A stretch of 64,000 nt of DNA from Fabrea salina (Eukaryota > Ciliophora > Heterotrichea > Heterotrichida > Fabreidae). Positions within the stretch are counted from its first letter, which is position 1, and every line of letters starts with the position of its first letter. Below the pieces are notes generated by a model. It had not been told where the DNA came from, did no database searches, and saw only the letters and a program-made list of their open reading frames with translations. This document shows positions 10,776 to 64,000 of the stretch, in pieces. The position numbers and the translations under genes were made by a program. The stretch lies in assembly GCA_022984795.1 (NCBI GenBank), contig JALIHJ010000003.1, positions 248,001 through 312,000 on the forward strand, in the 5' to 3' direction.

Positions 10776-13700
10776 ATGCTTATTCTGCAGTTTTCTGGCA
10801 ACTGCTCGGAGAGTTGCCTGGGGCACTTTAAAAATGCTACTTCTGAGGCTTATTTACATTCGAAGCTGGACTGTGCAGAGTTAAAGGTTTTTGAGAAAGG
10901 AAGAGTGACTCTGTTGAAGAAATTTCCTAAGCCTCCAAACAACTTTACCACCTTAGAAAACTGCAGTTTGGTGTTGACTGAAGGTGAAGCTTTTATCAAG
11001 CCTAAACTTCTAGGCGGAGGTTCTTGTTTTTCTAAGTCAAAAAAAAGCTTTGAAGAGAACCCTAGTAGCAAAGCTGACTTGCCTGCAATAGTGATGCAGA
11101 AACAAGAGCCTATAGTTACTACTAGTCAGAACTACCAAAACTACGAAGTGGCAGAAAGAATGCTTGGTCTTGCTTCACAAGGAAGGAAGTCAGACGTACT
11201 AGAGTGCATACAGGAACTTGAGTTAACTAGCGAAACCCAAGTTGACAATCCTTTTGAAGTAGCTTTGAAAATCATTGAAACTCTTAACTTAGACAACCTA
11301 CAAATCTGGGCAGCTCCTTTGAAGTACTTGATGGTTAAAACACTCAGGCCTTACTTAGGACTTGCTTTGAAGCAACAAAAATCCAGAATTCAAAGAACCA
11401 GACTAGACAACTACCAACAAATCCTTAAAGACTTAGCTTCTAACTCTAACGAAAAAGACATCTTTGAGCTCCACTTCTCTTTTGAAGTCCAAAGGTGCAG
11501 AGACATTTTGATGCTTTTCAGCTCTGAAACTTTTACAAGTGAAGACAAGTCAAGGTTACTAATTGACTGTGGGAAAGTTATTTTGGGAGTCTTTGGAATC
11601 AGTGATGCCTTAGATGCGGTTGAAAGCATTTTGTCTGTGGCTTTTGGTCGCTTGTCCGATGTTTTCAAGCAAAAGAAGGCAAAAGTTCACTGGAAACTAC
11701 TTTTGCTTCAGAGTTACTACATTGAGTCTAAGTTTTCTGAACTGGACAACTTTACTGAGTTCTTGAAGAACACTTCGGACTGGGTAGTTAAGTTTGAAGG
11801 AATTACTCTGTTGTTTGACCTTTTGTGCTTGAATAGCAAACTTGAACTTCTGCAGAACTTTAAGTACTTAGTTTGTGACTCTGAACCTAAAGTAAGGTTC
11901 AAAATGGTCTTTGAAGTTATCATGCTCATGGGAAAACTACCACCAGAGACTGAGCTTTACCAAGAGTTAAACAAAATACTTAATGAACGCACTGGCATCA
12001 ACGGAGAGAAGAAGAGCAACATAGTTGCACTTATCAACAACCCAACTGTGTTATACGAGTTCGAAGCTCTAATAAGTGATTCATGGAAGGTCCAACTAGA
12101 ACAGGTAGAAAACACTTACAACAAGTTTGTCACAGACAAACCTTCTGTTTACGAGAAACTCAAAGAAAGGATCAAGAAGCTTAACCAAGACTTAGAAGAA
12201 AAAGAGTACTACATCTCGCCTGTGGCCTCTGACAGACAACTTGCTAACCCACACCAAACTTTCGACCTAAAGTCCAAAGTCACTGAACTTATATTCAACA
12301 GTGAAGTTAAGTCAATACTTATAATGGGCGAAGCAGGCTCAGGCAAAACTCTGTTCAGCAAACTCCTCACAATAGACCTAGCTTGGGACCCTGAGTGCGA
12401 GTACCTTCCTTTGTATATTTGGTTAGCCAAGATTGAAGACATCGAAAAGAACTTTATAAACGGAGTGCTTAAGTACAACGGCTTAGAAGACTACAAAGAA
12501 GAACTCAAAACAAAAAAGTTACTGTTTGTGTGTGACGGCCACGACGAAATTGAGTACACTGGAAGTTTAATAGAAAAAGGAACTCTTTCAGAGCACTTTC
12601 CTGAGTCCAAGTGGGTGTTTCTGTGCAGAAGTTACCACTCACACAAACTGGGTCTAAGTACTTTTTCGCCAAGAACTGAAAACAAGATTCTAGACCACCT
12701 CAGAAAAGATCTTTACATTCAGCCTTTCAACGGCCAGATGATTGAAAACTTCTTAACTAAGATCTCGAGTTTCAGGCCTAAGTCTTTTGGGCCTTCTGAG
12801 TGCTTGCAGTTTATTTTTTCAAGTCCAAGCATTCTGGAGCTAGTTAAGTTCCCTTTACTGCTGTACTTCATCTACGAAGCGTACCCTTCACTCAAGGAAA
12901 AAAAAGCAGTTAAAAAGTACGAAGTTTACAGGTTCTTTACTTTGGAGTTTTATAAAAACGAACAGAACAAAAGACTGGGAGGCAACGTTCAGGAAGAAGA
13001 CTATGAAAGCTTCGCCAAGGAACTGGCTTATCTTATGACTCTTGAAAAAGTTGAGTTGTTTAGTGTGAGAGAAGAGTCTTCACTGAAAAGACACTTTTTA
13101 AGTGTTGACGAAAAGGTGCAAAGGGGCTGTCTCATTAAAGCTGAAAGTAAGTACATTTTTAAGTTCATCCACAAAACAGTAAAGGAGTTTTACTTCTGTG
13201 AGCACATTTTTGACTTGGTTAACAAAGACCTAGAACAAGCTGTTGAGTGCCTGAACTCTGTGGAGTTCGCGGGCGAAAAGGTGATTCTGGAGTTTTTTAA
13301 AGATGTTTTTACTGGGAACTCTGAAACTTTACTAGAGATTGTTTACAGGTCCAAAGAAAACCCTAACTTAGCAAGGGCTGCTGCCAATGCAATTACTATC
13401 CTTAACTTCTGTAACTACAGCTTCAGTGGTTTGGACCTTAGCTGTGTAAGGATTCCTGGAGCTAACTTGTCGAACTGTGTCATGCAAAGAACTAACTTAT
13501 CAAACTCTAACCTGAAAGGTGTTAACTTCTTAAATGCTGTTTTGGATGAAGCAGTTTTAGATAGCTGTGACCTACAAAACGCAAACTTCGGAGAAAGACC
13601 TAGTCTTTCTGGACATACTGGTGCTGTGAATTCTTTGTGCTTCGCAAGCAACACTGAAGTTGTTTCAGGAAGCAACGACAAAAAACTCAAAGTGTGGAGT

Positions 13701-15365
13701 TTGCCAACCAAAGAAGTGCTTAGAACTATTCCAGCCCACTTAAAAAAAGTAAACTGTGTGTTGGTTTCTAAGGAGTTTATTATTTCTGGGTCACAAGAAG
13801 GCAGAATTAAGGTTTTTAACTACTACACTTGCGAAGCAGTAAGGGTGCTAGAAGGCCATAGTGACAGTGTAAACAGCCTTTCAAGAAGTAAGAACTTTTT
13901 GGTCTCAGGAAGCAGAGATGGGTTGGTGATAGTTTGGAACTGGGAGTTGGGAGAAGTTATTCACAGAATGCAAGGCCACAAAGGGTGGGTTCTAAGCGTT
14001 GGCATTTCAAAGAACTGGGTGGTTTCTGGAGGCCGAGACGAAACAATAAGAGTATGGAGCGAAGGGAACCACTTAAAGACTCTAGAAGGCCACAAAGGCT
14101 GGGTTAAGAGTTTGTGCGTTTCTAAAGACTCTAGGTTTTTGGTTTCAGGAAGCAAAGACTCAACTATTAGAATCTGGGACTTCGAAGAGTGCGTTAAAAC
14201 ACTTATAGGCCACGCTTCTTGCGTAAATGTTGTTTTGCTGACTAGAGACTGCAGATTTGTACTTTCTGGAAGCAAAGATGGCACCATTAGAATCTGGGAG
14301 TTCGAATCTGGGGACACTTTGAAAACTCTGTGTGGCAACAAAGGCGAAGTGTATGCTTTAGCTCTTTCAAAGGACGAAAAAAGCATAGTTTCTGGAGGCA
14401 AGGACAAAAAAGTGACTCTGTGGGACTTTGAAGCCGACGAAGCAGTTAAAACTCTGGAAGCCCACAGAGCTGAAGTAACTTGTATCTCTGTAGAAGGCAA
14501 GTACTTTGCAACCAGTAGCAATGATAAGTCACTGAGAGTTTGGGACTTAGAAAATGGTGAGCTGTTCAGAAAGATTCCTACAACAACAGGGTACATAAGC
14601 TGTGTTTGCCTGCACCAAAACTTTGTGTTGTCTGGAGGCAACGACAAGAAAGTTAGAGTGTGGAACTTAAACACTGGAGAAGCAGTTAAGGTGCTTAGTG
14701 GACACACTGCCAAAGTCAGAAGTGTAGTGTGTACTGAACAGAATGCAGTTTCTGGAGCCAATGATAGAACCATTAGACTGTGGAACCTAGACACAGGTGA
14801 AGCAGTAAGGGTACTCAGGACTGGCGAAGCTGTAAACAAAGTAGCTATTCTCAAGGAAAGGTTTATTGTTGCAAGCCAAGATGTTTCTGTGAAAGTTTGG
14901 GACTTTTACTCAGAGGAAGAAGTAACTACTTTGAGCTTGGAAGAGTCTAGTTGTTTAGAAGTTTGGGGAGACTTGGTAGTTGCAGGGAATCGAGGTTCTT
15001 GTGTCACAGTATGGAATGCAGAAACTTGGGAAGTAGTTAGTAGTTACTCAACTAGCCAAAAAGACATAAATTGTATAGGGGTCTGCAAGGAGTACCTTGT
15101 TTCGGGAAGTAAAGACGGCACTGTAGAGGTGTCCAACTCCCAGACTTTGAAAGGTTCAGGCTCAAGTGTGAGTTGTGTGTTTGTGAGTTCCAATTATTTG
15201 ATATTCGGGGACTCAGAGGGCAGGGTGTTTGTGTTTGGGGAAAGAGATGGAGAGTTCTTGCTTAAGTACAGAATAGGCACAGGGTACCTTTCGCTTAGAA
15301 ACACTTCAGTTGTGAACGTCAAGCCCTCAAATTGCTCCCTTTATGATTTAGTAGCAAGTCTTTAA
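10776..15365 (+). CDS. NACHT STAND NTPase with pentapeptide repeats and about 14 WD40 repeats
   Basis: A 1529-residue NLR-like signal-transduction ATPase. The N-terminal 500 residues are largely helical with no effector I can name. The P-loop is GEAGSGKT (about residue 518), the Walker B/NACHT acidic cluster is LLFVCDGHDEIE (about 583-594), and winged-helix-like sequence follows. Residues about 880-940 form pentapeptide repeats (A/N-L-S/D-N pattern, e.g. GANLSNCVMQRTNLSNSNL). From about 943 to 1505 there are roughly 14 WD repeats (SGHTGAVNSL, EGHSDSVNSL, QGHKGWVLSV and so on), enough for two seven-blade propellers. STAND proteins oligomerise on ligand sensing by the repeat domain. The role here is unknown; self/non-self recognition or stress sensing are possibilities. 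The signal-peptide ORF begins 5 bp downstream. Confidence 0.88.
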   Translation: MLILQFSGNCSESCLGHFKNATSEAYLHSKLDCAELKVFEKGRVTLLKKFPKPPNNFTTLENCSLVLTEGEAFIKPKLLGGGSCFSKSKKSFEENPSSKADLPAIVMQKQEPIVTTSQNYQNYEVAERMLGLASQGRKSDVLECIQELELTSETQVDNPFEVALKIIETLNLDNLQIWAAPLKYLMVKTLRPYLGLALKQQKSRIQRTRLDNYQQILKDLASNSNEKDIFELHFSFEVQRCRDILMLFSSETFTSEDKSRLLIDCGKVILGVFGISDALDAVESILSVAFGRLSDVFKQKKAKVHWKLLLLQSYYIESKFSELDNFTEFLKNTSDWVVKFEGITLLFDLLCLNSKLELLQNFKYLVCDSEPKVRFKMVFEVIMLMGKLPPETELYQELNKILNERTGINGEKKSNIVALINNPTVLYEFEALISDSWKVQLEQVENTYNKFVTDKPSVYEKLKERIKKLNQDLEEKEYYISPVASDRQLANPHQTFDLKSKVTELIFNSEVKSILIMGEAGSGKTLFSKLLTIDLAWDPECEYLPLYIWLAKIEDIEKNFINGVLKYNGLEDYKEELKTKKLLFVCDGHDEIEYTGSLIEKGTLSEHFPESKWVFLCRSYHSHKLGLSTFSPRTENKILDHLRKDLYIQPFNGQMIENFLTKISSFRPKSFGPSECLQFIFSSPSILELVKFPLLLYFIYEAYPSLKEKKAVKKYEVYRFFTLEFYKNEQNKRLGGNVQEEDYESFAKELAYLMTLEKVELFSVREESSLKRHFLSVDEKVQRGCLIKAESKYIFKFIHKTVKEFYFCEHIFDLVNKDLEQAVECLNSVEFAGEKVILEFFKDVFTGNSETLLEIVYRSKENPNLARAAANAITILNFCNYSFSGLDLSCVRIPGANLSNCVMQRTNLSNSNLKGVNFLNAVLDEAVLDSCDLQNANFGERPSLSGHTGAVNSLCFASNTEVVSGSNDKKLKVWSLPTKEVLRTIPAHLKKVNCVLVSKEFIISGSQEGRIKVFNYYTCEAVRVLEGHSDSVNSLSRSKNFLVSGSRDGLVIVWNWELGEVIHRMQGHKGWVLSVGISKNWVVSGGRDETIRVWSEGNHLKTLEGHKGWVKSLCVSKDSRFLVSGSKDSTIRIWDFEECVKTLIGHASCVNVVLLTRDCRFVLSGSKDGTIRIWEFESGDTLKTLCGNKGEVYALALSKDEKSIVSGGKDKKVTLWDFEADEAVKTLEAHRAEVTCISVEGKYFATSSNDKSLRVWDLENGELFRKIPTTTGYISCVCLHQNFVLSGGNDKKVRVWNLNTGEAVKVLSGHTAKVRSVVCTEQNAVSGANDRTIRLWNLDTGEAVRVLRTGEAVNKVAILKERFIVASQDVSVKVWDFYSEEEVTTLSLEESSCLEVWGDLVVAGNRGSCVTVWNAETWEVVSSYSTSQKDINCIGVCKEYLVSGSKDGTVEVSNSQTLKGSGSSVSCVFVSSNYLIFGDSEGRVFVFGERDGEFLLKYRIGTGYLSLRNTSVVNVKPSNCSLYDLVASL

Positions 15366-15370
15366 TAAAT

Positions 15371-15631
15371 ATGATAGTTCTACTGCTACTTGGACTGTGT
15401 CAAGCTGATTACCAAATGGACAAGGTTCGCCAGCAACCTGATGGAGCAGTTGTTATCTATGGAAACGGCTACTCAGTGGATCTTGATTTGATGGTAATCA
15501 AAATTGGGCCTTATGATTGCAAACCACTTAAAAGCTCAATAACTTCTATAGAGTGTAAAATAAGTGAATACCAAGAAGGAAGCTTTGATGTGCGCCTATA
15601 TGTAGATTCCTGGGGAGGAAACAAAAGCTAA
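15371..15631 (+). CDS. Signal peptide + IPT/TIG-like ectodomain, probable N-terminus of the next ORF
   Basis: An 86-residue ORF starting MIVLLLLGLCQADYQMDKV, a good signal peptide. Its remainder alternates strands (GAVVIYGNGYSVDLDLMVIKIG, SSITSIECKI, FDVRLYVDSWGG) in the manner of an IPT/TIG immunoglobulin-like domain. It ends at TAA only 31 bp before the following large ORF, which has no ATG near its own 5' end. In the +1 frame the sequence between the two reads on as KTENLTC, a motif echoed shortly afterwards (TANLTC). I infer that this is the first part of the 15.7-18.2 kb gene, interrupted by a frame break near the G/T homopolymer block. The alternative is an independent small secreted protein. 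Confidence 0.5.
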   Translation: MIVLLLLGLCQADYQMDKVRQQPDGAVVIYGNGYSVDLDLMVIKIGPYDCKPLKSSITSIECKISEYQEGSFDVRLYVDSWGGNKS

Positions 15632-15662
15632 AACCTAAAACTGAAAACTTAACCTGTCCTCT

Positions 15663-18248
15663 TTGATTAGGGGGGGTTTTTTTTTTGTGGTTTTTTTTTG
15701 GGGGTTTTTTGATCCGTGCAGCTTATGTCATGGAATCATAACATACGTTGAAGATTGTAAAACAGAAAACTCTAGTTTGTGCTTATACATACATAGCTGC
15801 TCAGGACCAACCCCTTCCTACAGAACTGCTAACTTAACCTGCCCAGACCACTGTGATGTCTGCAACTCTCCAGGTAACTGCCTAGAGTGTTCGGGTGATT
15901 TCTATGTTGAGTCTGGAACTTGCAAATCAAGATCTTCCTTGATAACACCCATTGCAATACTTACTCTACTTGCCATTCCTCAGATTCTGTATATGGAAAA
16001 GTACCAAAAACTATTCAAAATTCTGGAAGTAAGTGGACTGAGTGTTTTTAAAGTCCTGAACTTAGTTGTTTTTGCTCTGAACTACGATAACTGGGTATTG
16101 TCTGTGGCTTTTTGTCTGAGTTTTTTGTACGAGATATTTATTTATTCATCCTACCTTTTTTGCGGAGGCATTGAAGAGATTGATACTCACAAAGGAGCTT
16201 ACCGCTTTATGAGCCCTTTTGTGATTCCAGGTTGGTACTTAAACATATTTCCTTTGTTTCCTTACTTCAAGAAAAAAGATCAGCAGTCACTTTTCATCAA
16301 CACAATTCTGACAGCCAACATACACTCTGCTGTATCAGTGGCTATGTGCATCACAGTAATCTACAACTTCGATAGTACTGCTTCGGTGGTTCTAAGTTGC
16401 GTTTCAGTTTACTTATACCTACTTACTCCTAAAGTCTCAGTGCACTCTTTGGAAGAAACCAACAGAGGCAAACTACTGAACTACTTAAGACATCTCGGAG
16501 ACATTTTTACACTTAGTGTTACTTTCACTCGCTTTTCTGATCTTTTTGGGTGCCTTATCTTGTTTTTAGTGTACCGTATTTTTAACTCTGTGTTTTGCTT
16601 AGCACACAACAGAGACCTTGAAGTAGCTATAATGAACGGACAGTTCAAACTCAACAAAAGAATGAAGGTTTCTGTTTTGATTGCAAACTACGTTGGAAGA
16701 CTGACTCTGAAGCACAAGTGGGTATACTTAGTAGTAACTCTTGGCTACTACTGTGTGTTGATAAGTCTTAAGATCTGGTTGACCAACTACATTATGCCTG
16801 TGGACTACTTTAGTTTAGGCATTGACTTTTTGTTACTGCTACTTACTTGCATGCAGTTAGGGGTGTTTATAGCTTACGAGTGCTCTGTGTTTGAAGAAGC
16901 CTTTAGCACGCAAATTCAGTTCAGAGGCAGATTCAAAGGTTGGAAGAGTTACTTGAAGATAGCAGTTCCTTTGGTTTCTCTGATTGACGAAGTTACTGAC
17001 ATAATCTACTACTTTACTACTGACTTCAACAGTCAAGAACTAGAAGAAGCATCACTGGTCTTTCTTGTAATTCTTCCTTTAGTTCACTTTGCTTCAACAG
17101 TAGTGGTAGGGCTTGTGATTTGTAAATTCCAAAGAAGAAAAGGACTAGCCGTAATCATGTGTGCAGTTCCAATAACAGTATTGTGGGAGTTAAAAGTCAT
17201 AGGCATTGCAGTGCTTTTTCTGCAAGGAATCAAACAGGACTTTTATAACTGGATTTGGATCTTTTTGATAGTCTCTGAACTGGTTTTTGAGTCTGTGCCT
17301 CAAACAATCATCCAAATCATTAACAATGAGTTAACAAAGTGGACCGCCATTGCAGTGCTGAGTGTTATCTTTTCAGTTCTCAATAACTTAAAGAACTGGT
17401 TCACAACTGGGTACTACCTGTACACCAAGTCCCCACTGGTTCAAATCCGAGAGCCAGGAGAAGTGTCAGAAGATGAGTTGGTTGCAGAATCCCAAACCCT
17501 TCCAGAAGCTTTTGTGTTTTGCTTTGACAACTCAGAGTATGGTCGAGCCCAGGACTACCTACCTGACAGGTGGCAAGCCCAACAAGAAGCTGCTTTTATG
17601 ATTGCTACTAACAAGGTTGAATCTAAACCAGAAAGCAAATTAGGAGTCGTATCAATGGGAGGAAACAAGTCTAGAAGTGATCTCACTAGTAGTATTACCC
17701 AAGCTTTCTCTATTTTGCGCTATGTTAGCGTTTTGGAGGGTAAAATTGACTTAGAGTACGGCTTGGAAACAGCTAAAGCTATACTCAAAAAGAAACCCCA
17801 AAAAGAGCACCTACAAAGAATCATTGCTTTTGTGTGCAGTCCTGTTGGAACTAGATCTGGGAAACTCCTGAAACTAGGCAAAACTCTCAGAAAGAACAAA
17901 ATAGCTCTGGACTTAGTGTGCTTTGGAAACAGAGACGATGTTGACAAACTCCAACAACTTGTAGAACAAACTAACTTCCAAGAAAACTCCCACCTTGTTC
18001 TAGTGTCACGTGACGAAAGAATGCTGTCTGACTCTCTTCTAAACACTCCAGTAATCCACGGCTACACTCAACCCCAAACCAACGTTTTAGAAAACAGAGA
18101 AGACTCCGAATACACCAAAGCTATCAAAGAAAGCTTAGAACAAGCCAAAAAGCACCAAGAACTTTTTGAGTTAGACGAAGAACAACTAGTCCACCAAGCT
18201 ATTCAACTGAGCATCAAAGAAAACTTTCAAGAAGAAAACAATTTTTAA
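15663..18248 (+). CDS. Multi-pass XK-like membrane protein fused to Rpn10-like VWA + UIM
   Basis: A continuous 861-codon frame. Its first codon is TTG, so the true N-terminus is probably the upstream signal-peptide ORF. Order: Cys-rich furin-like segment (CDVCNSPGNCLECSGDFY, about residue 65-90); about ten hydrophobic segments from about 95 to 590, ending in an XK/XKR-like stretch (LIDEVTDIIYYFTTDF, FESVPQTIIQIINNEL); then, from about 614, a module matching 26S proteasome subunit Rpn10/PSMD4. The Rpn10 signatures are FCFDNSEYGRAQDYLPDRWQ, AQQEAAFMI, RIIAFVCSPV, LDLVCFGN and NSHLVLVS. Two UIM-like helices close the protein (EYTKAIKESLEQAKK; EEQLVHQAIQLSIKE). A cytosolic ubiquitin receptor tethered to a polytopic membrane protein is implied. 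No stop or tiny intron separates the halves. Convergent with GSTZ1 (3 bp apart). Confidence 0.8.
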   Translation: MIRGGFFFVVFFWGFFDPCSLCHGIITYVEDCKTENSSLCLYIHSCSGPTPSYRTANLTCPDHCDVCNSPGNCLECSGDFYVESGTCKSRSSLITPIAILTLLAIPQILYMEKYQKLFKILEVSGLSVFKVLNLVVFALNYDNWVLSVAFCLSFLYEIFIYSSYLFCGGIEEIDTHKGAYRFMSPFVIPGWYLNIFPLFPYFKKKDQQSLFINTILTANIHSAVSVAMCITVIYNFDSTASVVLSCVSVYLYLLTPKVSVHSLEETNRGKLLNYLRHLGDIFTLSVTFTRFSDLFGCLILFLVYRIFNSVFCLAHNRDLEVAIMNGQFKLNKRMKVSVLIANYVGRLTLKHKWVYLVVTLGYYCVLISLKIWLTNYIMPVDYFSLGIDFLLLLLTCMQLGVFIAYECSVFEEAFSTQIQFRGRFKGWKSYLKIAVPLVSLIDEVTDIIYYFTTDFNSQELEEASLVFLVILPLVHFASTVVVGLVICKFQRRKGLAVIMCAVPITVLWELKVIGIAVLFLQGIKQDFYNWIWIFLIVSELVFESVPQTIIQIINNELTKWTAIAVLSVIFSVLNNLKNWFTTGYYLYTKSPLVQIREPGEVSEDELVAESQTLPEAFVFCFDNSEYGRAQDYLPDRWQAQQEAAFMIATNKVESKPESKLGVVSMGGNKSRSDLTSSITQAFSILRYVSVLEGKIDLEYGLETAKAILKKKPQKEHLQRIIAFVCSPVGTRSGKLLKLGKTLRKNKIALDLVCFGNRDDVDKLQQLVEQTNFQENSHLVLVSRDERMLSDSLLNTPVIHGYTQPQTNVLENREDSEYTKAIKESLEQAKKHQELFELDEEQLVHQAIQLSIKENFQEENNF
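15670..15710 (+). repeat. G/T homopolymer block
   Basis: Runs of G7, T10, GTGG, T9, G5 and T6 occur in succession, unlike anything else in the window. The block sits at the junction between the IPT-like ORF and the membrane ORF. A 15-nt GT...AG unit (15656-15670) abuts it but does not by itself restore the frame. It may be a homopolymer-length error in the assembly, a slippage-prone tract, or telomere-like G/T sequence. Confidence 0.7.
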
Positions 18249-25943: not shown

Positions 25944-28900
25944 CTAAGGCAACACTAGAACACGTCCTTTCCAAGTTTTCTGGAACTCTCCACTTTGCAC
26001 TGAAATGTCAGGTAGTTGCTGGATCCCAGCTTCTATTCCTATCAATCGGTACTCCACTTGTTCTTGGACTTCCTCAGACACTTCAAGTCTTAGGTTTTCA
26101 AGCCCTCCTAACAAGAACCCGTTTGAGTTGCTGAGTTTTATTGTCAGTTCTTGTTTTTCTTCTGTGTTGTTTTTGATGTACAAAAACACTGAAAACAAAG
26201 ATTTGTGGTGCACCTGTGAAGGGGCAACAACTTCTAAGTCTATAGGCGAGGACTTAACTGGAATGTAGGGGAGAGGCAGTCTGCACACACTCACCTCTCC
26301 TTCTTTCCTCGACCACTTCACCACTAGGTCCCCTGAGAGCTGGTCCTTGGTTTGCTTCACCCAAATCTGAAACACTTCGCTTAAAATGTCTCCTTCTGAA
26401 AGAGTTTGGGGTGAGTAACATGCTTCTCCAGAGCTTTCCCAGTCTTCTTTGCTCGAAAGTTCTATGGCATGGACAACTATTTGTTGGGAGCGTAAAGTCC
26501 AAACAGAAACTTTGAGCAGTCCTGGAGAATTAGTGTGGAGGGGTTTGGGGCACTTTATGTGTGACTGAAAAGGAGGTTTGACTTCAAGTTCTAAGCTGTG
26601 GTCTTGTTCGGACTCGTAAGTAATGTCTTTGCTTTCTTTAACAGTGTACTTGAGTTTGACTTTTAAGGTGTACAAACCTTCTTCAAAAAAGTAAAACTGG
26701 AGTGGAATACTAACTTCAGAATCAGTGTGTGGAATAGTTATTCCAGACTCAGTGTACTCCACAGGCTGAGGGTCCAGGTGGTAAATCACGTACTGGTTAA
26801 GGGTAGCTCGGTCAATGCTGGCACGCTTAACATTGCCAGTTTCCTGGGCTTCTTCTCGGTAAATAAACAGTTTGCCCTCCAAGATTTCGGCGTTGGGACT
26901 AAGTTCTACAGTTATTGGGTAGTTTTCGGCAAAGAACACAGGAGGTTTCTGTGAAAAAGACAGGTTGAGTTTGGGAAGAGGAGGCAGTACTTTTAGCTTA
27001 GCAGAGGTATTGATTTCCAGAGTCAGGCAACTAGCTCCTACTTCGTAGTTAAGAATTATTTGTTTAAGTTCTAGTTCTGAGATTTCGTGCTTAACTAATA
27101 GTTCTTGGCGGATGACTGCTGGGTGTTCAGAGTTCAGAGTTATTAGTTCATGGTGTTCTAGATTGAAAGAGTTATCTGAAAACATCAGTGCTATTCTTAC
27201 ATTCTCCATCACCACTGGAATAAACGACTGGATTTTAACTTCCAAAGTGCTCTGTTCGTATTTGTGGATTTTTTGGGGAGAGTAACTAATATGCGGAGTT
27301 AGGAGTTCTCTAGGGCACTCCACTTGGACTTGTAAGAACTCTTCGTTGAGTGTTTGGAAGGTGTTTTCTAAGAGTTCTTTTCTTTTCTCTTGATTGAGTG
27401 CAGCCATTTGCACCTTGGACTCTAGGTTTTTGGAGGTGTTTCCTAGAATGCTCGAGTCCTGAATCATCCTGTCAAGAATGTTTGCTGAGATGCCTTTCCA
27501 ATTACTCATTCTTTGAATCAGTTCTTCTTCTAAGCTAAAGCTCATTTGGGTTTCGCCTTTTTTAGAGTAAAGTCCAACTAAGAAGTAGTTGAGTTGATCT
27601 ACAACCCTAGGCATAGGTATTGTTAACTGGTAAAACCTTGCTGCACTCAAAGCCAAGTCTACTGATACTTGCAAGTGCTGGAAGTCAGCTTCTTCTATAG
27701 TTTTGATGATTTTGACTTGGTCGTTTGTGCTGATGCCTTCAATCATTTCAGACTGAAGGGGGTGTGAAACTAGGGTCTTGGACTTGCCTACGTAGTCCGG
27801 GTCCTTGACTCTGAACCCTGCGTTCTTAATGAACTCTTGCCAGTTAGACACTGACTTTATAAAGTCTTCGTCGTGAGTAGTGATTTCCATCCTTCTGTAA
27901 ACAAAGTTAGAAGCAGTCATGTAGTAAAACCCTGGGTGAGTCCACAGGTTGTTAACTTCATAGGCATTTCTAGGAACACTTTCTAGCAGTCTGCCGAAAC
28001 GCACGAACTGGTCAGTTAACCACTTCCACCTTTCAAACAACAAAACGTCTTTGTGCTTAAGGTTCCTGTACTTGGCTATGTGGGACTTGAACAAAGTCAC
28101 TGCTTCTTTTAACTTAGTCACTAAATAAGGAGCACTCAAGTGAATGCACCAGATTCTGTAAATGGTCCAGTCAGCCACAGTTCTAATTTCTTCGTAGTGG
28201 GCTAAGTTCACAGGACTCGTTTTGACTAAACCAGAGTAAGCTTTTTTATAGCAGTTGAGAGCAGAGTCTTTTTCTTGTCTGAGTTCGTTTAAGTAGCCTT
28301 GCTTGAAGTCAAGTCTCACTTCTATAGTTTTGGTGTTGCCCATAAGTTCTTTCTGGACTTTAGACTTCAGTTTTTTGATTCTTTCGATTTCGTCGCGGTA
28401 ATGTGCAAGTGCACTGTCCCACAAGTACTTTTTGAGTTTAGGCAAACTCTGAGGACTGTCGTCAATCCGCGACTTGACTACAAATATAGCTTTGCTTTCT
28501 AAGTCAGTAGCTTTTTTCACAGAGTTAGTTCTTTCTTCAACAGTTGCTTCTTCGTTGTGACTGATGTACACTAGCACAGCTATCTTCACAAAGCGGTTCC
28601 GAAACTCCTCTCTGAACTTCCTCACGTAACTAAAAATAGTTCTTTCTTTACTTTTCCAGTCAGGTGAACTCACAGGTGGCGAGTCAAACCTTGCTCCGCT
28701 CCAGTCAAACACCAACAAGGCCACTGCAGGAATGAACTTTTTCCTCTTAGTTGTCCAGCCTAGTTTCAAAAAGCCTTCTGAAGACTGCCTTTCTACCCTG
28801 GCTTCTCGCCTGACTTCGAATTCGTGCGAGAACTCTAAACTTTCGAAGTCCAGTTTCTCTTCTTGCGAGTAACTTGAAATCGAACCAATTATAGACTCGT

Positions 28901-28976
28901 GCAAGTGAGTACTCCCTATGATGCTCACTACTGGTCTTAGTGTTTGGACTCTTAGACTGTCAGGCAGTTCTCCCAT
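25944..28976 (-). CDS. TRAPPC11: TRAPPC11 (foie gras/Gryzun) trafficking complex subunit
   Basis: A 1010-residue subunit of the TRAPPIII vesicle-tethering complex (ER-Golgi traffic and autophagy). The N-terminal region shows ALLVFDWSGARFDSPP and the NRFVKIAVLVYISHNE strand preceding the foie-gras domain. Next come helical repeats (CYKKAYSGL, AARFYQLTIPMPRVVD). The C-terminal half is beta-rich Ig-like sandwiches (SFIPVVMENVRIALMFSDNS, VEYTESGITIPHT) as in Gryzun domains. The length is close to the human protein (1133). The ATG follows GTAATAA; WDR12 lies 9 bp upstream on the same strand. Family assignment rests on architecture and a few motifs, not alignment. Confidence 0.78.
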   Translation of the reverse strand: MGELPDSLRVQTLRPVVSIIGSTHLHESIIGSISSYSQEEKLDFESLEFSHEFEVRREARVERQSSEGFLKLGWTTKRKKFIPAVALLVFDWSGARFDSPPVSSPDWKSKERTIFSYVRKFREEFRNRFVKIAVLVYISHNEEATVEERTNSVKKATDLESKAIFVVKSRIDDSPQSLPKLKKYLWDSALAHYRDEIERIKKLKSKVQKELMGNTKTIEVRLDFKQGYLNELRQEKDSALNCYKKAYSGLVKTSPVNLAHYEEIRTVADWTIYRIWCIHLSAPYLVTKLKEAVTLFKSHIAKYRNLKHKDVLLFERWKWLTDQFVRFGRLLESVPRNAYEVNNLWTHPGFYYMTASNFVYRRMEITTHDEDFIKSVSNWQEFIKNAGFRVKDPDYVGKSKTLVSHPLQSEMIEGISTNDQVKIIKTIEEADFQHLQVSVDLALSAARFYQLTIPMPRVVDQLNYFLVGLYSKKGETQMSFSLEEELIQRMSNWKGISANILDRMIQDSSILGNTSKNLESKVQMAALNQEKRKELLENTFQTLNEEFLQVQVECPRELLTPHISYSPQKIHKYEQSTLEVKIQSFIPVVMENVRIALMFSDNSFNLEHHELITLNSEHPAVIRQELLVKHEISELELKQIILNYEVGASCLTLEINTSAKLKVLPPLPKLNLSFSQKPPVFFAENYPITVELSPNAEILEGKLFIYREEAQETGNVKRASIDRATLNQYVIYHLDPQPVEYTESGITIPHTDSEVSIPLQFYFFEEGLYTLKVKLKYTVKESKDITYESEQDHSLELEVKPPFQSHIKCPKPLHTNSPGLLKVSVWTLRSQQIVVHAIELSSKEDWESSGEACYSPQTLSEGDILSEVFQIWVKQTKDQLSGDLVVKWSRKEGEVSVCRLPLPYIPVKSSPIDLEVVAPSQVHHKSLFSVFLYIKNNTEEKQELTIKLSNSNGFLLGGLENLRLEVSEEVQEQVEYRLIGIEAGIQQLPDISVQSGEFQKTWKGRVLVLP

Positions 28977-56959: not shown

Positions 56960-59900
56960 TTAAAGTTCTGTAGGCAGCAAGCAAGGGAAGTAGATTATAA
57001 GGGTCCTAGCAATCTCTCCAAGCAGCTCTGCTTTGAACCCACAAAACTCTTTAGCCGTAGTTAAGTAAACGAACCAAGCCTTGAACACAGCACCTAAACC
57101 TTCTCCCACCAAAAAACTCCAAATCAGGGAAGTAACGTAACAGAATAGGAAGTCATTGGCTTCTTCTTCGGTAAAAGGCTCCAAAAAGCAAAGCGAAATC
57201 ACCCCTGACACACAAAGCACCATGAAAGAAAACACCAACAAACTCCCAAGAACTTCTCTGCAGTGCTTGTTTTGGTAAGCTTGGGTCTTCCAGGCCTGAG
57301 AAGCCGTGTACTCAACCATGTTCCGAGAAAACAGGTACTTAGTGAGGTAGTGGACAGGCCAAGGCAAACACGCACACACAATCCCTGCTAAGATCTGGGC
57401 TTCTTTGTTACAGCCCCAAACACACAGTCCAGTTTCGTCGAACTCCTTGTCAAAGTTCCAGTTGAAAAAAGCTATGTAAGCCTGGCACGCCAGCAACTGC
57501 AAAAAGCAAAACTGAGCTAGCAGCGTAAGCATTTGTTTTTTGGAGTACTCGATGTGCAGGTTGAAGAACAGCGACAGGAACTTGTGCTCTTTCTTAACAT
57601 ACAGTTTCAGCAAACTGCAGTAAGAAAGTTGGATGGCTGTGCGGAACTCCTTAACTTCACCCACTACTTTGGAAGCGTAGTTGTTTCCTGTGAGGGCTTT
57701 GGGGTTGGGAATTAACCTGCGGTCGTCTCCTACAGTTAAAGCACTGAAGTCCCTGATGTCGTAGCCTAGCGACTTAAGGTGAGTGCCTTTCAGAGGCCGC
57801 TGCAGCATAGACCTGACTTCTTCAGGAAGGCCTTTAGAGTCGTCATGGGTTTCTAAAAACTTCTCTACAGGACTAGGGGCGTAGGTGTTGTTTTCCATGT
57901 TGTGCATGTGGTGCTGGAGTTGCTCAATAGTAGCTTCAATGTCAGCTCTAGGAGGAGGCTGCATGCTTTGGCGACTTCCTTCGTCACTTACCATGGAGGG
58001 GTAGTGACGAGGGTCGATTTCTTTTTTCAAGTGCTGTTTGATTTTGGACAGAATGGAATCTCCTCTGATGCTTTTTTGGTCGAAGTCCAAACTTTCTTCA
58101 AAAGAGTTATTTGCCAGCAAACTTTCTATGGGGTGATCGGGTTGGGTTGCTTCTTGGTGCCAGTAAGTAAGTCTTTGCCGAGGTGTAGTGTTGGTTTCTA
58201 GTCTTTGCATGAAACTTGACCCTAAAACTTTAGACATGTAGATAGAAGGGTCGTCTTTTTTCTGACTTGAGTTTTCTCTTAGTTGGAGTAGGAGTTCTTT
58301 CTCGAACTGTGAAAGGACTGCTTCTACTTTTTCGGGGTCAATGTACCTGTAAGTTTTTTCAGTTTCAACAGTTGGGTTTGAAAGGCCAGGGTGGAAGTTG
58401 TCCCAGTAGTAAGCAAGACTAAGTCCTATGATATAACTAATCATTCCGGACAAAAGCAAGTAAAACACTAAAGAACACTCCCAGTACACAAAGGAAAACA
58501 CTGGTGTTTGCTTTGAATTTATGATTTGTGAAGAAACTTGGAGCTGCTGCAAAGCGTTAAAAGTAACAGTGAAGTCAGACAAGTGGTTGCAAGAACACAC
58601 CAGCTGCACGTAGTCTGAAATGTTGCTTTTGAACTCAAAAAAGGAGTAAACTGAACCAATGTTGTAAAGACTGCACCCGTCAGAAGACCAGTCTTCGTCT
58701 TTCCAGTAACTGCAAGTAGGCCAAATCTGAACGTACTTTCCTCTTTGCTGACTTACTCTTTGCTGCATGGCCTCAATAGTGCTTTTTGAAATGTTGTAAG
58801 TAAACAAGAACGACTGGTCTAAGTCTTTGAATTCAAGCTTCTCAGAACTCAAGGAATCGTAAAACTCCACACTTAAGTACTCGTCCAGAGCTACTCTTTC
58901 ACCTTCAAAAGGGTTGTTTCTTATGTATGAAGCAAACACACTGACTTCTTCGTCGGTAGCACTTAAGTCAGGTACTTGAATGGACTTTCCCTGTCCTAAG
59001 TCTATAGTAGTGTTTTGGATGTTTAAGAGCAAGTCTCTTCTGGACTTAGTGGTTATTCTAGGCAAAGATACTTTTCTAGGGAACTCAGTCACTTGGGAGT
59101 TGAGTGTAAGGGCTTTGTCAGTGTTTCTAATGAGCTCTGAAATCTCTGGAAGGAGCTTAGAACTGAATTTGTTGTCTGTGAGGTAAACGATTATTTTTGA
59201 CATCATCTGAGAAAGGTTGTAAAGGTCTTTTGTGCTGATAACGTTTTGCACACTTTCTTCGATTAAGTCGGCTTCTTTGAAGTAAAGTTTTTGTTTGCTG
59301 AGGAGTCTGTTGTAGTCAACTGAGTTCAGAATCTGCAAAATGTTTTCAGCAATGTCTTGACTAAGTGGGTACCTTGAAATAGGCTCAAGGGCTATTAAGC
59401 AGGTGTAGTACAGAAGCGAAGCTTTTTGAGGGTCAGACCCGTACAAAGAGTCAGCAAGTCTAGTTCCCTGCTCAACTACTTTGACGAGTCTGTTCTTTAT
59501 ATCAAACACAGGCTGGTTTTCTTCGAAGGTTTTGTTGAGTTCAAGTCCCACGTTTGCAGCAAGGGCCACATTGGCAAACACGTTTTCTTCACTAAGCACG
59601 TAGTCGATGTTTTCGGAACTTTCTCTGATTTTAATGATATCAGTGAGTTCCTGGACGTTAACTTTAGCTGCAAAAGAAGACCTTGAACCCAAACTGTCGT
59701 AGCAGTGCCCTACCACCGATAGTCTGCCTCCAGGCAAAAATATCGACAAAATAGAAGAAGACTGCGGGCCTGCCAGCCAGTGCTCAGCAATTTCTTTGCC
59801 TTCGGAGAGTTCTTGCAGACTAGGTTCTTGGTAGTCCCCAAACACAAACGAAAACGAGTAAGTCAAAGGCAAGTCCTCGTCAGCCCAGTTAAGCATTTGT

Positions 59901-62900
59901 CCTCTGAATATTGAAATCAAAGCTGTGCCTGAAGACTCTTCTAAGTAAAAAAGTCCGTCTTGGGGCGGAGTGTTGGTAAAGAAAGTCAACACAGCTGAGG
60001 TCCTAGTTTCAAAGTCAGTGTAAGTAAGACTAAAGGTATAGGAAGAGTCTGGAGCAAGAGACCCCTCCCCAATAGTAATGACCCAAGACCCCGACAATGG
60101 AGTCAAGAAGTAGGGACTTGAACTTTGGGAACTCTTCCAGGTCCACCTTAGTCCTGAAGGGTTGTTTTTATAAGACTTTTTGCTGTATAGCTGGAGGGGC
60201 TTGTCGGTGTTTACTCTAAAACGAGGTTTGCCTTCGAAGGAAAGTGTTTCAACGTCCTGGGAAACTATCCTTACGTATATTTCGGCTTCACTTCTTCGCT
60301 GGTTTTCATCTTCAATTACAAACACGAACCTGTACACACTGTTAGACTTAAGGTCTTCGTTGATTGTTATTTCCTTGTCAGTGAAGTTTTGCGAGTAGTC
60401 CCAGAACCCACAAAGTTCCTGAAGTGGGTCTTTACTGTCAACGTTTTCAACGTAGTCTGCCCAAGAAGTTGCTATGCCAGTTTTGTAGTCCAAGTAACTC
60501 TGAGTGAAGTCAGAACAACTCCAGGAGTAACTCAAACTTCCGTTTCGGTTAAGTGCACTCGGGTCGTAAGAGGCAGTTGCGTCCAACTCTATTCTTTGCG
60601 AACGCCTAACTTCCACTCCTTTCAGACCTCCGTTAATCAGTGCTACCAGAGGTTTGAGTTGGTAGTCTTCAATTGAAAAAGACCAGATTTCAGAAGGAAT
60701 CTCTACTGAAGGCGACCCGTCTAGTCCATTAATTGCTCCTCTGCTGATTTCTACTTGGTAAGAAGCCCCGTAATCAAAGTCTTCCGAAGACACTGAAACT
60801 GAAAAGGTTTTTTCGTAGGCAATCACATTGTTACTTGAAGCAGGCAGCGAAAGAGCAGCTTCCCTCGTTGAGCCAGTAACTTTGTAAATAGTTATACTGC
60901 CACTTCCCTTTTTAACTCTAATGGGGTAGTCAACCTGAATGCGGGTCATGTTGATCAAGCTCACTGTTCCTAGGGGGAACAAAGCACTAAACTTAACGCA
61001 GCTCCTGGAAGAGGCATCTTCTATCTCCCCCACTTCACACTGCTCTACACACTTTCCTTCCATACTAAGACTCATGAAGGCTCCCTCTGCACACTTTTCA
61101 CAGATGCTTTCGTCTATGCAGAGTTCACACAATTCACTCGGGCACTTAATGCAGTCAGTTCCTTGTCTGTAAGTTCCATCGGGGCAATTGTTCACACAGA
61201 ATCCCTTTCCGTCTTCGTTTTTGTAAAGCGCTTTGTTGTTTTTGCAAAGCGTGCAGTTAAAAAGCTCAGGTCCTGAGCAAATCTGGCACTCAGGGTGGCA
61301 GTTTTCGCAAACTCTAGTTTCATTGTTCCCAAAGTAAAGTTGGGGACAACTTTCTTTGCACTCTGTTCCCTGCAAAAAGGTCCCCTCGTTGCAAGAAAGG
61401 CACTCTTCACTTCCAGCTCCAAAACAGTTCTCACAGGCACCTGAACACCTCTGGCATTGCTTAGAAGGAGTTTCCACTTCGAAGAACTTGTTGGGACAGT
61501 TAGTGTAGCAGGTTTGGTCCAGCAAGTAAGTATCTTGAGGGCAGGAGTTCAAACAGGACTGGTCTTTTGTGTTGAAAAAGGGAAAGCTTCCTCCACAGCT
61601 AGTGCACATGTTAGGGCCAGCTCCTTTGCACTCTAAACAACTCGAGTCACACATTGCACACACACCCTCTGAAACAAAGTACCCAGTTGGACACGAGTCC
61701 TGACACACTGTGCCAAACAAAAACTTCTCTTCCTTACAGGCTGTGCAGGAACTTGCCGACCCTTCGCAATCAGCACAGGAATCACTGCACTCCTCACAAG
61801 TTCTTCCAGAGCCAAAGTAGCCTTCAGGACAGGACTTCACACAGGAATTCTCCACTTGGAAGTAATCCTCATTGCAAGAGTTCAGGCAAATGTTGGTGTC
61901 TTCTTCTCTAAGGGGGAACTGATCGCTGCAGGCTGTGCACTGGTCAGGATCTGGCCCTTGGCATTCTTTGCACCTTTCATTGCAGTCTTGACAAGTGTTT
62001 CCGTTTCTAAAGGTTCCACTTGGGCATTCTTCAAAGCACTCTCCGTTGTATATGAGTTCTTCGCATTCCGTGCAGTCAGAAGCAGAGGGACCATTGCACT
62101 CTCTGCAGTTTTCATCGCATCCTCTACAGATGTTGTTGTTCACATAGTACTTTTCGGGACATTCATCTACACAAAGATTCTGATCAAAAACTAAAAGGTT
62201 CTCACACGAACTAACGCAACGCCCAGAGTTGTCACGGTAGGGGTAAATGCTTCTGCAAGTCAAGCAGTCAGTTTCTTCAGGTCCGTTGCAGGTTTCACAG
62301 GTGTTGTTGCAACTCAGACAAACACTTCCTTGGGGGTAAGTCCTTGTGGGACACTCTTCGTAGCACTGCTTTTCATACAAAAACTCGTTGCCTTCACAAG
62401 AGGTGCAGCTAGTTTCTCCGGGTCCGTCACAAGTTCTGCAGGCTTCGTTGCATTCTTGGCACTTGTTTGAATCGTCTACGTACTGGCCACTAGGACAAAT
62501 TTGACGGCACTGGGCATCTAGTAACTCAAAGTCTTCAAAACAACTTGCACACTGGTCGTTTTCTGGGCCTGAGCAAGTTTTGCAGTCTTCAAAGCACTCT
62601 TGACACAGTCCGTTTTCTAAGTAGTAGTTTGAAGGACACTCAGTGACACACTCTTGGCCTAGTTGCACGTAGTTATTGGGGCAAGCAGAGTAGCACCTAG
62701 GGTTGTTTTTGATTTGCAAAGAGTAAGTTTCAGCGCACTCCAAGCATTGGGTTTCACCAGGACCTGAACAAATATTGCAACTCACATCGCAGGCCTGGCA
62801 TACACTTGAGTTGTCTTTATATTTCTTAGTTTCACACTGAACTATGCACTCCTCAGTTAAGCAATTGAGTTTACGCCACATGTTGCTGATGGTTTGCAGG

Positions 62901-64000
62901 AACTTAGACTGGTTATTCACCAAGTCCTTAATTCCTGTTCCAGAGCCCTCGTCGAGCCGCCAGTACTCTTTTAAGTCACTTGGGTAGGGACTAGTGAACT
63001 TATAGTCTTTAAAGTTGTTAATTTGTTCACTTGTTCTAAGAGTGTCCCAAAAGCGCAAGTCGTGAATGATTCCGTTGAAGTTAGTGCTTTCTGAGTTGGA
63101 GCGTCCTAAGTAGACTCTTGAGATTTGTTGACTTACTGAGTACCACTGGCCTTCGAACCTTTTCTGTCCGTTTATGTAAATGACTGCACTTGTAATATCT
63201 ATCACAAAAGCTATGTGCATAAACTTCTTAGTTGGGGCATCTACTGTTAGTTTTTCTTGCGAGTTAGCATTCAAAAATATTATGCTTTGGGTCGAAGCCT
63301 TGCGTCGAATTTTAAGCAAAGGTGCAAAGTCAATAACAGGTTGTGAAGCACTATTCCAAGAATTAGGCATTATCCAGAATTCGATGGTTTTAGGCCGCGA
63401 AACTGTAGGAATAAAGTCCAGGCCTTGAGTGCCGTCCTTTCCTCTGTCTAAGTAAGAAGTTAAGGTGGCTTCGCAGTTAGAGAGTCCTCCTCCTACGCAC
63501 TCTTCACACTCAGGGTGGCAGTCAATACAGTTGCCGTTTTCTAGGTACTGTGAAGTGCTGCATATAAACTCTTCAACGTTTTCCTGGACCCAAATTTGGT
63601 TTTGGACAAAGCTGTTGGGAATGGTGGTGTCTCTGTTTCCAATGTATTCCTCAATAACATCTAACTCGGTAGGTTCGACTAGTCTCCAGTACAAGTTGAG
63701 GTTGCTAGGATAAGGTTCCTCAAAGTACTTGTTAAGGAATTCTCTAAAAGAGTCCTCAGTTCTGACTTCGCGCAGCCAAAACCGCATTTCAGCAATGTTT
63801 CCGTGGAAGTTGTTGCCTAAGTAAATGTTGTCTGGGTACTGGTCTTCTGGAGATTGGTTCCCGAATCTAGTGACCTGGTCTCTCCTGGCGTCTTTGTAGC
63901 AGTTAAAAATCAAAGAACTGTAGGGTCTGCTGATTGCAATGTGAGTCCAAACTCCACTTATCACGTTTGAAAAAGTGCAGTACTGGAGACCTGAGTCTTT
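56960..64000 (-). CDS. Giant LamG/furin-repeat/GPS multi-pass receptor (PKD1/adhesion-GPCR-like), 5' end beyond window
   Basis: At least 2346 residues; the frame is open to the right edge (12 codons upstream of 63964), so the N-terminus is missing. From the N-terminal side: two LamG/ConA-like domains (about 63.6-64.0 kb and 62.9-63.5 kb; YINGQKRFEGQWYSVSQQIS), a long array of furin-like Cys-rich repeats (about 61.0-62.85 kb; CQECNEACRTCDGPGETSC), an SbsA-like Ig domain, and a PKD/REJ-like region (about 59.6-60.7 kb). A GPS motif follows (LVCSCNHLSDFTVTFNAL, near 58.6 kb), then about six membrane helices (e.g. CSLVFYLLLSGMISYIIGLS). GPS-bearing proteins self-cleave in their GAIN domain. A surface receptor or adhesion role is inferred. 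No PLAT domain was noticed. Confidence 0.85.
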   Translation of the reverse strand, partial: KDSGLQYCTFSNVISGVWTHIAISRPYSSLIFNCYKDARRDQVTRFGNQSPEDQYPDNIYLGNNFHGNIAEMRFWLREVRTEDSFREFLNKYFEEPYPSNLNLYWRLVEPTELDVIEEYIGNRDTTIPNSFVQNQIWVQENVEEFICSTSQYLENGNCIDCHPECEECVGGGLSNCEATLTSYLDRGKDGTQGLDFIPTVSRPKTIEFWIMPNSWNSASQPVIDFAPLLKIRRKASTQSIIFLNANSQEKLTVDAPTKKFMHIAFVIDITSAVIYINGQKRFEGQWYSVSQQISRVYLGRSNSESTNFNGIIHDLRFWDTLRTSEQINNFKDYKFTSPYPSDLKEYWRLDEGSGTGIKDLVNNQSKFLQTISNMWRKLNCLTEECIVQCETKKYKDNSSVCQACDVSCNICSGPGETQCLECAETYSLQIKNNPRCYSACPNNYVQLGQECVTECPSNYYLENGLCQECFEDCKTCSGPENDQCASCFEDFELLDAQCRQICPSGQYVDDSNKCQECNEACRTCDGPGETSCTSCEGNEFLYEKQCYEECPTRTYPQGSVCLSCNNTCETCNGPEETDCLTCRSIYPYRDNSGRCVSSCENLLVFDQNLCVDECPEKYYVNNNICRGCDENCRECNGPSASDCTECEELIYNGECFEECPSGTFRNGNTCQDCNERCKECQGPDPDQCTACSDQFPLREEDTNICLNSCNEDYFQVENSCVKSCPEGYFGSGRTCEECSDSCADCEGSASSCTACKEEKFLFGTVCQDSCPTGYFVSEGVCAMCDSSCLECKGAGPNMCTSCGGSFPFFNTKDQSCLNSCPQDTYLLDQTCYTNCPNKFFEVETPSKQCQRCSGACENCFGAGSEECLSCNEGTFLQGTECKESCPQLYFGNNETRVCENCHPECQICSGPELFNCTLCKNNKALYKNEDGKGFCVNNCPDGTYRQGTDCIKCPSELCELCIDESICEKCAEGAFMSLSMEGKCVEQCEVGEIEDASSRSCVKFSALFPLGTVSLINMTRIQVDYPIRVKKGSGSITIYKVTGSTREAALSLPASSNNVIAYEKTFSVSVSSEDFDYGASYQVEISRGAINGLDGSPSVEIPSEIWSFSIEDYQLKPLVALINGGLKGVEVRRSQRIELDATASYDPSALNRNGSLSYSWSCSDFTQSYLDYKTGIATSWADYVENVDSKDPLQELCGFWDYSQNFTDKEITINEDLKSNSVYRFVFVIEDENQRRSEAEIYVRIVSQDVETLSFEGKPRFRVNTDKPLQLYSKKSYKNNPSGLRWTWKSSQSSSPYFLTPLSGSWVITIGEGSLAPDSSYTFSLTYTDFETRTSAVLTFFTNTPPQDGLFYLEESSGTALISIFRGQMLNWADEDLPLTYSFSFVFGDYQEPSLQELSEGKEIAEHWLAGPQSSSILSIFLPGGRLSVVGHCYDSLGSRSSFAAKVNVQELTDIIKIRESSENIDYVLSEENVFANVALAANVGLELNKTFEENQPVFDIKNRLVKVVEQGTRLADSLYGSDPQKASLLYYTCLIALEPISRYPLSQDIAENILQILNSVDYNRLLSKQKLYFKEADLIEESVQNVISTKDLYNLSQMMSKIIVYLTDNKFSSKLLPEISELIRNTDKALTLNSQVTEFPRKVSLPRITTKSRRDLLLNIQNTTIDLGQGKSIQVPDLSATDEEVSVFASYIRNNPFEGERVALDEYLSVEFYDSLSSEKLEFKDLDQSFLFTYNISKSTIEAMQQRVSQQRGKYVQIWPTCSYWKDEDWSSDGCSLYNIGSVYSFFEFKSNISDYVQLVCSCNHLSDFTVTFNALQQLQVSSQIINSKQTPVFSFVYWECSLVFYLLLSGMISYIIGLSLAYYWDNFHPGLSNPTVETEKTYRYIDPEKVEAVLSQFEKELLLQLRENSSQKKDDPSIYMSKVLGSSFMQRLETNTTPRQRLTYWHQEATQPDHPIESLLANNSFEESLDFDQKSIRGDSILSKIKQHLKKEIDPRHYPSMVSDEGSRQSMQPPPRADIEATIEQLQHHMHNMENNTYAPSPVEKFLETHDDSKGLPEEVRSMLQRPLKGTHLKSLGYDIRDFSALTVGDDRRLIPNPKALTGNNYASKVVGEVKEFRTAIQLSYCSLLKLYVKKEHKFLSLFFNLHIEYSKKQMLTLLAQFCFLQLLACQAYIAFFNWNFDKEFDETGLCVWGCNKEAQILAGIVCACLPWPVHYLTKYLFSRNMVEYTASQAWKTQAYQNKHCREVLGSLLVFSFMVLCVSGVISLCFLEPFTEEEANDFLFCYVTSLIWSFLVGEGLGAVFKAWFVYLTTAKEFCGFKAELLGEIARTLIIYFPCLLPTEL

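Follow-up and report, generated by a model that had tools for sequence, protein, structure and literature searches.

Rpn10 is, to our knowledge, otherwise known as a soluble proteasome subunit, and the locus described here raises the question of whether it can also exist as the tail of a polytopic membrane protein and, if so, what such a protein would do. The open frame concerned is listed at positions 15663..18248 (+) and comprises 861 codons of the window, i.e. the whole 64,000-nucleotide stretch of Fabrea salina DNA that was analysed (C26:248001-312000). An initial annotation had read it as a single uninterrupted frame from the membrane part into Rpn10, and this reading was borne out, since the junction between the two recurs in a paralog (on contig C44), in two database proteins (P0001 and P0002) and in a transcriptome protein (P0003). 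The membrane protein-Rpn10 fusion is thus real: in one frame, a polytopic membrane region is followed by a linker, an Rpn10 VWA domain and a pair of UIM-like helices. The features of the gene are as follows.

15371..15631 (+): N-terminal piece with a signal-peptide-like start, MIVLLLLGLCQAD, and an IPT/TIG domain (Pfam TIG, E 1.3e-5); P0001, P0002 and C44 begin alike and continue unbroken
15632..15797 (+): disordered joint containing a G/T-rich tract at about 15670-15710 (three-frame translation, DNA alignment to C44, sequence)
15840..15923 (+): cysteine-rich repeat of furin-like type, directly before the first membrane segment (sequence)
15939..17423 (+): polytopic membrane region in which 10 to 15 hydrophobic segments are counted, according to threshold and rows (hydropathy scans; six further genome matches)
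17424..17504 (+): linker of 27 codons from the last membrane segment to the VWA domain, coding and conserved (Ka/Ks 0.29 over 17430-17510; contained in P0003)
17505..18062 (+): Rpn10-type VWA domain
18099..18146 (+): UIM1-like helix, EDSEYTKAIKESLEQA (motif scan; core motif in all five fusion sequences, i.e. window, C44, P0001, P0002 and P0003)
18174..18221 (+): UIM2-like helix, DEEQLVHQAIQLSIKE (motif scan and sequences; core present in window and P0001)
18246..18248 (+): stop codon TAA (sequence)

Copies of the fusion and continuity of its reading frame

When the genome (18.33 Mb in 103 contigs) was searched in six frames with the Rpn10 part, three places were found, namely the window, C44 and C29. 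The C44 place holds a second fusion, in a 999-aa frame (L004:4778-7777), whose identity to the window protein is 73% over the Rpn10 part and 72% over the membrane part; the two paralogs lie on separate contigs and have different neighbour genes. The database protein P0001 (895 aa) is 91% identical to the window protein and P0002 (1006 aa) is 89.5% identical to the C44 protein, both carrying the fusion, and because they are unlike every genome copy found, their source is a different strain, allele or species. P0003 covers the junction at the level of the transcriptome, with five differences in 538 residues (99% identity to the window protein), and its label, MMETSP1345, is assigned to Fabrea salina in PMC6859813, fsalina being the prefix in PMC4967479. 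All five sequences have the same in-frame junction.

Between the two paralogs, Ka/Ks values calculated by a simple Nei-Gojobori procedure are 0.38 for the membrane part, 0.29 for the linker (a figure derived from only 27 codons), 0.38 for the VWA domain and 0.38 for the UIM tail. The linker evolves as protein, and linker, VWA domain and UIM tail are constrained like the membrane part. By eye, removal of a GT..AG stretch could connect an out-of-frame ATG at 17473 with the VWA domain; a gene boundary or intron near 17480 is nevertheless rejected, as the paralog does not have the sequence needed for it and P0003, an RNA-derived protein, includes the linker.

The start of the gene and its ectodomain

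The initial annotation had placed the start at 15663, and here it went astray: the gene begins upstream, and a signal-peptide-like start, a TIG domain and a cysteine-rich ectodomain had been missed. P0001, P0002 and C44 all start with MIVLLLLGLCQA, the same sequence being encoded in the window from ATG 15371, where the gene starts, TTG 15663 probably being no start. The latter adjoins the G/T-rich tract, the translation of which is unmatched in P0001 or C44, and most of the joint at 15632..15797 is missing from P0001. The TIG domain is in one frame with the membrane part in P0001, P0002 and C44 but in another frame in the window, where the N-terminal piece closes at an in-frame stop (15631) and is discontinuous with the rest in this assembly. 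Neither three-frame translation nor DNA alignment to C44 yielded a frame joining the two in the window, and among five candidates for an intron of 14-17 nt at this joint, none of those inspected removes the stops. The break is either an assembly error or the mark of an allele that has lost its ectodomain, which would make the window allele a misassembled or a truncated one. Local degeneration of the 5' part is, besides faulty assembly, a possible source of the G/T-rich tract and frame break within window 15632-15797. As for the cysteine-rich repeat, Furin-like_2 stays below the Pfam cut-off in P0001, P0002 and C44.

The ectodomain has many relatives in the same genome. The TIG piece matches 59 places at E<=1, itself and two on C44 counted, and the start-peptide pattern is found 18 times, those in the window, C44 and C29 among them, versus none in a reversed control. 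The longest frames of ten TIG-matching regions were read and three of these proteins were scanned with Pfam: TIG exceeded the cut-off in all three, a laminin-G-like domain exceeded it in one and fell below it in two, and in one of the three PA14 was over the cut-off with a sub-threshold TRP match. Such TIG-ectodomain proteins, for instance the gene L018 on C29, resemble the fusion in their TIG domains and near-identical signal-peptide-like start, but differ in having another membrane part (by eye) and, in the three that were scanned, no VWA match. L018:133-4596 (+) (C29:175132-179595) encodes a TIG/PA14 protein with a TRP-like, sub-threshold membrane part (TIG and PA14 exceed the cut-off, laminin-G and TRP remain under it) and is convergent to the canonical Rpn10 gene, sharing the start-peptide motif of the fusion. 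That the ectodomain arose next to canonical Rpn10, by way of this C29 neighbour, was considered and rejected, because the start pattern at 18 places leaves no special link between the two.

The membrane part and its orientation

Six further genome matches to the membrane part were found, on C44, C59, C46, C42, C9 and C36, the last with an E value of only 0.02; the C42 match reads through three stops and contains a 502-aa frame. The C59 relative (45% identity, 665 aa) ends right after the membrane region, without Rpn10, which is also missing from those on C46, C42 and C36, and the C9 relative (L011:1234-3705, +) continues into leucine-rich repeats in the place of Rpn10, a second domain swap. 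The differing C-termini indicate that related membrane parts have been joined to different C-terminal modules. A profile search of the protein database with the membrane part returned only P0001, P0002 and P0003 among the best-sharing candidates, an absence elsewhere that counts as weak evidence, as the same search missed the genome's own C59, C46, C42 and C9 relatives although these were in the profile, being either absent from the database or overlooked by the word filter. Against PDB sequences, the membrane-part profile gave no match and the C36 relative (L012) a single chance-level one.

The XK-likeness proposed initially survives in part only. The 210-aa C36 relative matches the XK-related family at E 9e-4, below the cut-off (18.7 bits versus 24.8), and aligns to the XK family profile with a probability of 97%, but the fusions themselves have no Pfam XK match. 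Over the whole genome, PF09815 gave nothing above the cut-off and one place, on C51, at E 0.12. A conserved E-x-x-P-Q/E-x-x-I-Q-x-x-N-N block is common to the fusion and the C36 relative and constitutes the likeness to XK-related proteins (PF09815), from which the fusion differs in lacking the Pfam match and in bearing an ectodomain and an Rpn10 tail. Taken together, a weak and indirect XK kinship of the membrane part is suggested.

The polytopic character is evident from the hydrophobic N-terminal two thirds, but the count of about ten segments given at first was not stable: six hydropathy scans gave 10, 13 or 14, and another scan of P0001 gave 15. The structural model of the membrane part is of no use for the fold, with pLDDT <50 over nearly all of residues 1-645. 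The C-terminal tail falls into the more positively charged loop class in five of the six scans (four of five distinct segmentations), which favours the cytosolic side for the Rpn10 part. An outside ectodomain combined with 10 or 14 segments would place that part outside, and the charge distribution agrees with an outside N-terminus, as implied by the signal peptide, in only two of the six scans. Ubiquitin and the partners of UIMs are located in the cytosol and nucleus, and we infer a cytosolic position for the Rpn10 part.

The Rpn10 part: ancestry and residues kept and lost

The C-terminal half had been taken for an Rpn10-type VWA domain, an identification that held. Its last 251 residues match Rpn10 chains (ten distinct PDB sequences, E 2.5e-30 to 1.9e-25) as well as PF13519 (E 6.6e-14). 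Assignment to another VWA family was rejected: Ssl1 remained under the cut-off, at E 0.038 with the whole frame and 0.003 with the C-terminal part, and TFIIH chains ranked below most Rpn10 chains. A separate canonical Rpn10 is also present in the genome, on C29, with 319 aa from its MALEAT start, and P0004 is its database counterpart (99% identical). In the tree, the four fusion VWA domains form one clade (100/100), sister to canonical Rpn10 (99/98), P0001 pairing with the window and P0002 with C44. This topology points to a lineage-specific Rpn10 duplicate that was fused and then duplicated.

The two UIM-like helices expected behind the VWA domain were recovered by a motif scan. The core motif occurs twice in the window and P0001 and once each in C44, P0002 and P0003, the UIM2 of P0003 having A at the first hydrophobic position and that of C44 and P0002 a Ser to Asn change. 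When the 75-residue tail of the window protein was shuffled, 7 of 10,000 permutations yielded at least two core motifs. Pfam UIM (PF02809) was not called in the fusions, and UIM_2 appeared once, at E 0.35.

Within the VWA domain, D11 (D12 of the aligned window piece) is an invariant column, kept in nine of nine rows; both the stability of the VWA domain and assembly are reported to depend critically on this residue (PMC11546751). Among the residues described as facing Rpn9, namely E14, Y15, R17, N18 and G19 (PMC5059453), the fusions keep E14 and R17 and have Y or F at position 15, with N18 replaced by A and G19 by Q in all five sequences; G19 is invariant in the 32 canonical rows. The site of K84, ubiquitylation of which is reported to release yeast Rpn10 (PMC5059453), is kept in the fusions as judged by eye from the alignments. 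All four fusion rows (P0001, window, P0002 and P0003) retain 39 of 69 near-invariant Rpn10 columns, and the conserved C-terminal segment around LPGV is lost, with gaps at G290, V291 and P296 in each of them, positions kept in 31, 32 and 30 of the 32 canonical rows, respectively. C44 also stops short of this segment.

The fusion therefore resembles Rpn10/PSMD4/S5a, the ubiquitin receptor of the 26S proteasome, in VWA fold, D11, K84, UIM order and ancestry, but differs in sitting behind a polytopic membrane protein, in coexisting with a canonical Rpn10, and in its altered N18-G19 loop, short UIM tail and missing C-terminal segment. As ancestry and fold are clear but the Rpn9-facing loop is changed and the C-terminal segment absent, the protein is best filed as an Rpn10-derived variant, and not as a proteasome subunit.

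Putative function and competing explanations

With moderate confidence, and judging from sequence features, the most likely role of this lineage-specific Rpn10 duplicate behind a polytopic membrane protein is that of a membrane-anchored ubiquitin receptor. Anchorage in the cell membrane or an endomembrane would be provided by the membrane part, which in intact relatives bears a TIG/cysteine-rich ectodomain, and the presumably cytosolic Rpn10 part would bind ubiquitylated proteins, probably those of the membrane. Contact with ubiquitin would be made by UIM1, joined in the window copy by UIM2, and the VWA domain would serve as a diverged scaffold. Against such a receptor speak the varying segment counts, the missing Pfam UIM call, the damaged UIM2 of C44 and P0002, the out-of-frame ectodomain of the window allele and the poor model of the membrane part.

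The next-best explanation, although rather unlikely, is that the fusion docks whole 26S proteasomes at a membrane: the VWA domain would occupy the Rpn10 site of the regulatory particle and hold proteasomes near ubiquitylated membrane proteins. It gains from the preserved fold and D11, from the retention of the K84 site and, among the Rpn9-facing residues, of E14 and R17 (PMC5059453; by eye), and from the precedent of proteasomes held at membranes via Rpt2 myristoylation (PMC10686573). Nevertheless, the substitution of N18 and of the otherwise invariant G19 in every fusion sequence, the modest retention of near-invariant columns and the loss of the C-terminal segment all count against docking, and a canonical Rpn10 is available for the site. 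Also unlikely, and somewhat more so, is an elaboration in which an outer TIG/cysteine-rich sensor is coupled to an inner ubiquitin receptor, so that outside or luminal signals would gate local, membrane-bound ubiquitin-dependent degradation through a built-in, genetically encoded proteasome dock.

UIM proteins are frequently monoubiquitylated and sorted, which counts in favour of a further, still less probable alternative: without acting as a general receptor, the Rpn10 part might serve its own receptor- or transporter-like membrane protein, in sorting through the UIMs, in coupled monoubiquitylation or in turnover. The kept K84, the release site of yeast Rpn10 on ubiquitylation (PMC5059453), and the recurrence of the TIG ectodomain in many proteins of the genome fit this idea; against it, sorting alone would need no full VWA domain, yet this domain is constrained as strongly as the membrane part. 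Lastly, a merger of two neighbouring genes through loss of a stop codon or faulty assembly, which the close spacing of open frames in the window and the disturbed 5' part of the gene might suggest, can be practically discounted, as it is already contradicted by the coding-type evolution of the linker and by a junction shared with the paralog, P0001, P0002 and P0003, five sequences that would all have to carry one error.

Relation to known systems and significance

Like the membrane-anchored receptor proposed here, N-myristoylation of Rpt2 places ubiquitin-proteasome function at membranes, but by a lipid anchor on that subunit, with no transmembrane fusion described in the abstract (PMC10686573). 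In Giardia, GlRpn10 is another protist Rpn10 whose VWA domain is non-canonical and whose location is special, at the flagellar pores, but it is found in the nucleus and cytosol too, and its abstract speaks of no membrane fusion (PMC4352536). The view that no family with this architecture has been described stands, as protein searches of the best word-sharing candidates (7995 and 7999) found none outside the lineage. Among these candidates sharing most words, no fusion was found in other heterotrichs; the database searched does contain canonical Rpn10 proteins from Stentor coeruleus and Blepharisma stoltei. Among the literature matches listed, none describes such a fusion by title or start of the abstract.

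A maintained and duplicated membrane-integral Rpn10 beside an intact canonical one would represent a natural test of separating ubiquitin reception from the proteasome and moving it to a membrane, and also of the Rpn10 surface that docking requires, with N18-G19 changed and D11 kept. It would also illustrate how three modules can be joined into a new receptor in a compact ciliate genome.

Other genes of the window

Window 10776-15365 (+) encodes a 1529-aa protein with an NTPase-like middle, GEAGSGKTLFSK, and a pentapeptide-like stretch (both by eye), as well as many WD40 repeats; 25 of its 59 matching Pfam families were displayed, every one of beta-propeller/WD40 type. Window 25944-28976 (-) encodes a Gryzun/Foie-gras-type trafficking (TRAPP-like) protein, barely above the Pfam cut-offs. 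Finally, window 56960-63964 (-) encodes a 2334-aa protein with REJ and laminin-G domains and cysteine-rich stretches of growth-factor-receptor type, probably a large surface protein.
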